A stretch of 64,000 bases of DNA from Stieleria bergensis (GTDB taxonomy: Bacteria; Planctomycetota; Planctomycetia; Pirellulales; Pirellulaceae): assembly GCA_007745635.1 (NCBI GenBank), contig CP036272.1, forward strand, positions 1,189,700-1,253,699, read 5' to 3'. Every line of letters starts with the position of its first letter. Position 1 is the stretch's first letter. The position numbers were made by a program, and so were the translations under genes. Below are positions 25,774 through 27,587 of the stretch, piece by piece. Below the pieces are notes generated by a model. That model searched no databases. It saw only the letters and a list, made by a program, of their open reading frames with translations, and was not told where the DNA came from.

Positions 25774-25915
25774 CCAAGTGCTCCCTCAGCCGTTTTGGCG
25801 CTGGCCAGGATCGGGTCAGCAACACTCTGCTGTTTTGCGGGAGGGTTCAGTCAACGGTTCTCTCAGCAACACCCTTGTATGTTACATTCTAGTGGTGTTT
25901 CGTTGGACACTACAG

Positions 25916-26100
25916 ATGCAGTTGCTTTAGCCTCTGAGCGTAGCGAAGAGGCTAAAGCAACTGCGGCCGACGGCAGATCGTTGACCCTCGAGTGCTGCAA
26001 CGCAGATACTGTGCGGGAGCTGGATCGTCGTCGGCCTTTGGTAAATAGCCCGAACAGCCGCCTGAGCCGAGACAAGCTCTCGAGCTCGCATTTGCAAGGA
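25916..26100 (+). ncRNA. Putative IS110 bridge RNA
   Basis: The left end folds into three units. First, a perfect 18 bp hairpin, 25918-25935 with 25947-25964, loop of 11. Second, a loop closed by GGCCGACG (25965-25972) and CGTCGGCC (26029-26036). Third, a loop whose apical stem is GAGC-CGAGA (26064-26072) with TCTCG-A-GCTC (26078-26087). In loop two, ACCCTC (25984-25989) equals the left target plus CT core, and GCGGGAG (26013-26019) is the reverse complement of core plus right target CTCCCGC. In loop three, ACAGCCGC (26054-26061) equals the right end of the IS (27069-27076), and TGCAAG (26093-26098) pairs with core plus left end CTTGTA, with one G-T. This matches the target- and donor-binding loops described for IS621. 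RNA ends are approximate. Confidence 0.75.
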
Positions 26101-26115
26101 AGGGATACATCCAAG

Positions 26116-27060
26116 ATGAGTTTTCAACACTTTATCGGAATCGATGTCTCAAAAGCCAAGCTTGATCTCGCGTTTGATGAACAAGCCACGACAACAGTCG
26201 TTCCCAATGATCCAAAGGGAATTGATGAGCTAGTGGATTTGTTGCCAGAAGCGAAGTCTTGCCTGATCGTAATTGAGGCCACTGGCAACTACGAACGTCC
26301 ACTCGCTGTGCGACTTGTTGAAGCCGGCCATGTTGTCTCTGTGGTCAATCCGAGACAAGTGAGAGACTTTGCCAAAGCGATTGGAAAATTGGCAAAGACT
26401 GACAAGATCGACGCACGCATCATCGCACTGTTTGGGAAATTGACGAGGCCTCGAGCCGTCGCCAAAACCAAGCAATTGCAGGGTGAATTGGATCAGCTTG
26501 TGACTCGAAGAAGACAGTTGATCGGCACCAGAACTGCCGAGAAGAACCGACAGGGACAAGCCGTGTCCGGAGCGGTTCGCAAGAGCATTCAGCGCGTTCT
26601 CGATGCAATCAACAAGGACATCAAAATGATTGATCGTGAGATCCAAAAGCTTGTGCAGTCTGATGATGACTGGAAGCATCGCGCCGAATTACTTGGGACG
26701 ATGCCTGGTATCGGCGATGTGACATCAGCAACGATCATTGCAGAGTTACCAGAGCTTGGCGACCTGAACCGACAGGAAATCGCCTCGCTCGTTGGACTAG
26801 CACCGTTCAACCGGGACAGCGGGCAGATGCGAGGCAAGCGTTCGATTTTTGGAGGCCGTGGATCAGTGCGATCGGCGCTCTACATGGCCGCACTGAGTGC
26901 TCGCCGATACAACCCAGCGATCGCAGCCTTTTCCAAGAGACTGGCCGAACAAGGCAAGCCTCCAAAGGTCGTTATTACCGCATGCATGCGCAAAATCCTC
27001 ATCACACTCAACACAATGGTCAAAACAAATACAGCATGGGAAAATCCACAAAACGCTTGA
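26116..27060 (+). CDS. IS110-family transposase (recombinase)
   Basis: 314 residues. The RuvC-like DEDD domain has Asp10 ([10 protein letters not shown]), Glu54 (IEATGNYE), Asp96 and Asp99 (KTDKIDAR). A coiled-coil middle ([20 protein letters not shown]) links to the C-terminal Tnp domain with [10 protein letters not shown], a helix-hairpin-helix, and [10 protein letters not shown] with the catalytic Ser235. All key residues are present, so the enzyme is likely active. It recombines target and donor DNA as directed by the bridge RNA. ATG 26116 follows GGAAGGG at 26097-26103; the frame is open much further upstream, but that region is the RNA-encoding left end. A frameshift or stop is not seen. 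Confidence 0.96.
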
Positions 27061-27587
27061 CATCTAACACAGCCGCTCCCGCTTGCGGAAGGGTCGGCCG
27101 ATTTGCGGTGGTGGCATGCTGGTGAGTGTGCCGAGTTGCAAGGCGGCGACATTGGTTGTCTCAACGGCCGGCCGGGGAGGGCTTCTTTGTGGCGGCTTGC
27201 GGTTGGCGTTGCCAACCACTTCACCCTCACCTCGCTTAGGCTCGACTCTCCCGCCAGCGGGAGAGTTCAGTCAACGAAGGGGCAACGGCTCTGTTGTGGC
27301 GGCTTGCGGTTGGCGTTGCCAACCACTTCACCCTCACCTCGCTTAGGCTCGACTCTCCCGCCAGCGGGAGAGTTCAGTCAACGAAGGGGCAACGGCTCTG
27401 TTGTGGCGGCCTGCGGTTGGCGTTGCCAACCACTTCACCCTCACCTCGCTGACGCTCGACTCTCCCGCCAGCGGGAGAGTTCAGTCATGAATCACCTCAG
27501 CCGTTTTGGCGTTGGCCAAGGTTTGGTCACAACGACGGCAGCATCCCAAAAACGGGGCCTTACGGCCTGCGTTAATGGGGGACGAGA
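27061..27587. repeat. Hairpin repeat array downstream of the IS110 element
   Basis: From 27078 the sequence is the right half of a hairpin repeat, followed by three copies of a ~107 bp unit with CTCTCCCGCCAGCGGGAGAG hairpins starting near 27245, 27352 and 27459, each with GTTGGCGTTGCCAACCA just before. From 27496 CCTCAGCCGTTTTGGCG repeats text at 25793, left of the IS. Open frames here are repeat translations, not genes. No terminator with a T-run is evident. Confidence 0.85.

Follow-up and report, generated by a model that had tools for sequence, protein, structure and literature searches.

The window analysed here is a stretch of 64,000 nucleotides from the planctomycete Stieleria bergensis, in which an IS110-group element has split one arm of a REP-like host repeat. 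The element encodes a recombinase gene, preceded in its left end by a predicted bridge RNA with four legible guide segments. The features, all on the forward strand, are as follows (with their basis in brackets).

25867–25873, +: left target CAACACC, arm of the host REP-like repeat (sequence, flank comparison)
25874–25875, +: left core CT (CT in 14 of 14 full copies)
25876–27077, +: IS110-group element, 1202 bp including the right core CT (14 full copies of identical extent)
25878–25883, +: −10-like box TATGTT (forms with 27057–27062, over a 17-bp spacer, a promoter-like pair across the circle junction)
25918–25964, +: 5′ stem-loop with an 18-bp stem (folding, relatives)
25965–26036, +: target-binding stem and internal loop of the predicted bridge RNA (conserved fold; model match at 25960–26106, 108 bits)
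25980–25988, +: left target guide (LTG) GTTGACCCT (guide-target scoring, copy comparison)
26012–26019, +: right target guide (RTG) TGCGGGAG (guide-target scoring, copy comparison)
26020, +: predicted handshake base C, which can pair with donor position 7 (G) (sequence; rule from PMC11208158)
26049–26104, +: donor-binding stem and internal loop, CCC 26049–26051 with GGG 26102–26104 (conserved fold)
26054–26061, +: left donor guide (LDG) ACAGCCGC (8/8 match to the element's own right end)
26090–26098, +: right donor guide (RDG) ATTTGCAAG, pairing with CTTGTAT (donor scan; IS621 pairing scheme)
26099, +: predicted handshake base G, which can pair with target position 7 (C) (aligned column; PMC11208158)
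26116–27060, +: IS110 recombinase, 314 aa, DEDD RuvC-like and Tnp domains (PF01548, PF02371, NF033542; IS621 8wt6, ISCro4 9t56)
27057–27062, +: −35-like box TTGACA (sequence)
27076–27077, +: right core CT (CT in 14 of 14 full copies)
27078–27084, +: right target CCCGCTT (sequence, flank comparison)

Searched at the DNA level, the host genome (7.1 Mb, a single scaffold containing N runs) yielded at least 14 full copies of the element, every one 1202 bp long and differing from the window copy (L004) at 0–15 positions; these copy counts are lower bounds, 40 of the 45 first-look candidates having been scored. The remaining host matches were grouped by us into 12 more places, mostly cut by N runs, and L016 is apparently truncated. 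CT flanks the element on both sides in all 14 full copies, so that a short core alone is repeated at the IS ends, and the ends (25876–27077) and CT core proposed in the first-pass annotation are thereby borne out. The same annotation held that joining the flanks recreates a hairpin present intact at 36351; the hairpin is indeed rebuilt, but it reads GCGGAAG in place of GCGGGAG, a one-base change, and has another right flank. It also asked whether other copies sit at CT|CCCGC. CCCGC starts the right flank in 11 of the 14 full copies; of the one-sided right flanks, 10 of 11 start likewise, and the copies at CT|CCCGC lie mostly inside the REP-like hairpin (degenerate at L007), whereas three full copies (L005, L009 and L014) lie outside the repeat, with CCCT still preceding the junction. 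As in the IS110 group, the RNA is carried by a left end of 240 nt and the right end extends 17 nt past the stop codon; with the model match in the left end and so short a right end, the arrangement is not that of the IS1111 group, where the bridge RNA lies in a long right end.

Recombinase searches used the translation of 26116–27057. Both PF01548 and PF02371 were found above their cut-offs, and the NCBI model ‘IS110 family RNA-guided transposase’ matched with 235 bits (cut-off 140). The protein is similar to that of IS621 (PDB 8wt6) across residues 5–304 (E 4e-45) and to that of ISCro4 (PDB 9t56; E 7e-45), the latter likeness being one of IS110 recombinases at the protein-sequence level. Residues D10, E54, D96, D99 and S235 align with D11, E60, D102, D105 and S241 of IS621, as counted by hand along the alignment with an inferred chain numbering offset of 2; the recombinase thus has the DEDD RuvC-like domain and the Tnp domain with a conserved serine of the IS110 group. 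Matches at E ≤ 1e-20 occurred in 34 of 241 genomes of the family, host counted in (at most nine candidates scored per genome), and the full-length matches outside the host were 37–48% identical among the matches listed. A match occurred in 2719 plasmid records, all below 60% identity, and a scan of genome contigs gave 15 loci, although such scans may omit records from the host's own lineage. The closest relative (L048, in G156, about 1074–2100) is broken, with 69% identity over 194 residues; its target-loop letters are unlike those of the window copy, and 5/6 bases of its left flank TGCCCT agree with its own AGCCCT.

The family-only alignment (A2), with 14 left ends from 13 Pirellulaceae genomes, supports a conserved fold of 23 pairs, composed of a covarying target stem (13), an invariant CCC–GGG clamp and a donor-side hairpin (7), in which LTG, RTG, LDG and RDG are all unpaired. 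Within this fold, 92.1% of 316 cells pair, falling to 29–45% once one strand is slid by 1–3 columns, and 14 of the pairs show changes on both sides; none of 500 shuffles scored as high for pairing, both-side changes or covariation, while 19 of 500 did so for further pair types. The single-sequence fold of the window copy differs, part of the LTG pairing with part of the RTG, and RNAalifold on the 23-sequence cross-phylum alignment (A1) returned three pairs, none changed on both sides, and did not recover the conserved fold. Note that L041 and L033 gave no segment for A1, and that the segment of L066 was left out of both A1 and A2.

Of 24 loci that had no part in training, the fold model found the RNA in 21, including Desulfacinum, Dechloromonas, Aromatoleum, a Chloroflexota genome, L066 (51.5 bits) and ISEc32, the weakest (22.5 bits). 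It had no match at L062, L067 and L071; L067 lies so close to its contig edge (it starts 23 bases in) that its left end is missing from the sequence. It should be noted that these 24 loci are a selection, from which the partial matches L040, L043–L045, L069, L070 and L072–L075 were left out. Within the window the model gave one strong match (108 bits) and one at chance level (E 6.9), and in the host genome 15 matches, all within element copies (150 of 1712 first-look candidates scored); in an Rfam search at gathering thresholds, the window had no match. The earlier description of the left end as a hairpin plus two loops thus stands, the two loops being conserved across the Pirellulaceae left ends, and the covariance-model folding it had proposed keeps the guides out of stems in relatives. 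As a side observation, the hairpin with the 18-bp stem (25918–25964) has a long counterpart with other stem letters in each of five relatives checked, with GAGCGTAGCGA in its loop in three of them; this hairpin could be an RNase III processing site.

Copy comparison and scoring refined the guides proposed from the first pass. ACCCTC at 25984 was rightly positioned, but the LTG is really 9 nt long (25980–25988) and the last C falls outside it; GCGGGAG at 26013 is present, but the RTG runs one base further 5′, to 26012; and TGCAAG at 26093 is present, but the RDG becomes ATTTGCAAG at 26090–26098, in line with the discontinuous pairing known from IS621. The proposal that ACAGCCGC at 26054 equals the right end needed no correction. 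At the window copy, the LTG pairs at only 5/9 positions. The guides are identical in all 14 full copies, which have the CT core throughout and targets in agreement, so that the same loops were not found with other cores or targets; L005, L009 and L014 show additional guide-target mismatches, and L002 has a single one, immediately preceding the core. At L005, LTG matches are limited to its last four bases plus one other, and a free scan favoured a different LTG position.

Beyond this single element, nine were scored (our own, G206, G209a, G209b, G038, G027, G026, G017 and G152), every target-loop region being compared with the natural targets of each of the nine. Element ends were set at the points of divergence between copies, with end motifs as an aid wherever copies have flanking repeats in common; for G152, whose three copies share the left flank, the left end was placed by motif alone, and L077, which is without a left flank, was dropped from the G206 targets. 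Own targets scored best, except within the class of G206, G209a and G017, which have the common target TGG-GT-GGCAC. With this GT class reduced to one member, a single one of 5040 re-pairings of the seven target classes reached the observed sum, namely the true one, and the same held for 1 of 720 when G152, whose best LTG register is off by one relative to the core, was excluded. For every one of the nine elements, at most 1 of 300 single-base shuffles (0 for the window element) reached the own-target score, and the donor score was reached by 1 of 500 for this element and by 0 of 500 for each of the other eight. The LDG matches its own donor 8/8 in eight elements and 7/8 in G017, and the donor guides track their own donors (ACAGCCGC, ACAGTCGC, ACCGTCGC, ACGGTCGC and ACAGCCGA). 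Two internal loops with guides matching target and donor are thus found, as in the IS110 group, and because the guides of these nine elements vary in step with their targets and donors, coincidence is very unlikely, in agreement with the first-pass annotation. Together with the unpaired state of the guides in the conserved fold, this covariation supports, at the level of sequence, a guide-RNA interpretation.

Two further sequence features also fit IS621, in which, once strands have been exchanged, the bases following each right guide are able to pair with the other DNA (PMC11208158). On the donor-loop side all nine elements fit, the base after the RDG being G in six (target position 7 = C) and C in three (G), with host copy L002 having T at target position 7. 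The target-loop side fits in eight of nine, with C after the RTG in eight elements and U in G026 (wobble), donor position 7 being G in all nine; for G038 and G026, the RDG scan hit a tied alternative place and the handshake base was taken from the aligned column. In G206, G209a and G017, the handshake C would pair with their own donor G too, prior to exchange, a pairing reported to be inhibitory in IS621 (PMC11208158). The second feature is a sigma70-like junction promoter, reported in IS621 (PMC11208160, PMC11208158) and matched here by TTGACA-17-TATGTT, whose score is reached by 5 of 1000 shuffles. Such −35-like and −10-like boxes lie across the predicted circle junction in all nine elements, with a spacing of 17 bp in all but G152, where it is 16; taken singly they are modest, each score being reached by 4 to 49 of 1000 shuffles, and their common position is the stronger point.

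The host-repeat palindrome CTCCCGC-NN-GCGGGAG occurs 96 times in the host, 52 times in its congener G210 and 0–8 times in the other 12 of 14 genomes, and is thus a lineage-specific repeat family expanded in the host and G210. Just right of the element, at 27187–27487, a 107-bp unit containing this palindrome is repeated 2.8 times with 98% matches. The guides GTTGACCCT and TGCGGGAG pair over 9+8 positions (two wobbles) with GCCGACC-CT-CCCGCA, the best-matched arm, which holds five copies, and its empty form, the string CCGACCCTCCCGC, is absent from the assembled genome. ACCCTCCCGC remains empty at 23 places, none preceded by GCCG; at 6 of these the other arm of the same repeat is occupied, 8 were not flagged as hairpins by the script, and part of the 23 is due to chance since the reversed control was found 8 times. 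ACTCTCCCGC remains empty 159 times (reversed control 4), with one insertion. Occupied and empty sites thus number 5 and 0 for GCCGACC arms, 5 and 23 for other ACC-CT-CCCGC arms (5 of 28) and 1 and 159 for ACT-CT-CCCGC (1 of 160), with Fisher p values of 0.001 for GCCGACC against other ACC arms and 6e-8 for all ACC against ACT arms. Because the comparison is post hoc, the arms are unlike in wider context and gap-cut copies are uncounted, the trend towards lower occupancy as guide pairing weakens is suggestive.

Altogether, we hold with very high confidence that the element is an IS110-group, IS621-like insertion sequence whose left-end bridge RNA guides it to a host repeat. Its ends, its copies, the conserved two-loop RNA and the loops that match and covary with target and donor are directly supported by the data; circle formation, transcription, RNA loading and strand exchange are what we infer by analogy with IS621. 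By that analogy, the element would leave as a circle, and the joining of its ends would create a promoter transcribing a bridge RNA of roughly 150–190 nt, held by two recombinase dimers. Of its two loops, one would pair with the ACC-CT-CCCGC arm of the host repeat, the second with the ACAGCCG-CT-TGTAT junction of the circle; the top strands would then be cut after the core via serine intermediates and exchanged, with the help of handshake bases C26020 and G26099, and bottom-strand resolution would finish the insertion and leave the CT core alone repeated.

That the targets are palindromic repeats would also be expected if the recombinase alone recognised the repeat, the left-end RNA being structural or regulatory, as for ISPpu9, whose tnp 5′-UTR folds and controls translation (PMC8450116), and the guide matches incidental; AAGGAAGGG, which lies in the RNA 3′ end close before the ATG, could be read in the same sense. 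However, guide covariation with target and donor across nine elements speaks against recognition by the recombinase only, the non-repeat sites retain CCCT and most RTG pairs, and a regulatory role of the RNA is compatible with a guiding one, so we give this explanation hardly any credence. Slightly less improbable, though still very unlikely, is a spread of copies among repeats through homologous recombination or gene conversion, the site bias then reflecting shared repeats and not guided insertion. Some flanks do belong to longer repeats (L003 and L012 are identical over 60/60 bases on one side), but all 14 full copies have exact element ends, particular repeat arms are used, and the three non-repeat sites have little in common with the others beyond the guide-complementary bases.

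Under guidance by the bridge RNA, the main interest of this genome would be that it records naturally, for a planctomycete, how site choice depends on the guides, since graded use of matched and mismatched arms within one genome provides specificity data without experiment. The GGG of AAGGAAGGG belongs to the clamp, and its end lies 11 nt ahead of the ATG; the AAGGAnGGG motif recurs in many A1 rows, G206, G209a and G017 reading instead TCCAGGGA. An idea of our own is that AAGGAAGGG may double as a ribosome-binding site and so permit self-repression; PMC11208160 uses none of the terms ‘Shine’, ‘ribosome’ and ‘autoregul’ in its main text. Combined, these thoughts give a speculative picture, which we consider rather unlikely to hold as a whole: the genome would record bridge-RNA specificity, with fully paired sites exhausted and weaker ones rarely entered, and the 3′ leg of the RNA would be the ribosome-binding site of the recombinase, which when bound to the RNA would block its own translation.

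Compared with known systems, the element is closest to IS621 of E. coli (IS110 group) in recombinase, two-loop left-end RNA, CT core and REP target (PMC11208160, PMC11208158), and resembles it by description in the 8-nt LDG, the discontinuously pairing RDG, the junction promoter and the handshake bases. It differs in target and in its planctomycete host, in a 5′ stem-loop that is probably longer (47 nt, whereas the target-binding part of IS621 starts at nt 34) and in RTG pairing of 7–8 bp against 4 in IS621, longer ones being reported in some IS621 relatives. The element thus naturally has a long right target guide of the type engineered into IS621, where it brought the average on-target share up from 69.4% to 84.9% (PMC11208160). 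Insertion of IS110 elements into REPs is known in Proteobacteria (PMC1525189, PMC11208160): the IS110-family ISPpu9, ISPpu10, ISPa11 (treated as IS1111-type in PMC11187229) and ISRm19, likened here by description, are inserted at fixed points of host REPs (PMC1525189), their hosts being Proteobacteria, unlike the present planctomycete. Among the matches listed in the literature searched, judged mostly by abstract openings, no paper concerned bridge RNAs of planctomycetes; PMC9208149, in the part available, names IS110 and Planctomycetes and covers IS occurrence only. Our results carry the IS621 kind of bridge RNA to Planctomycetes guide by guide, with relatives that have different readable guides and natural targets.

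The Pirellulaceae relatives (G206, G209, G038, G027, G026, G017 and G152) share the RNA fold and recombinase type with the element, and several target repeats of their own, but they differ in protein (38–48% identity), guides and targets. In G206, G209a and G017 the left junction reads GT and the right one AT, unlike the CT/CT of the element; their target core and donor core seem to differ, which would provide a natural record of which strand gives each core. The loci with GT at left and AT at right are L076–L081, L092–L094, L096–L100 and L111–L113, their right ends having been sought with a string ending in AT.
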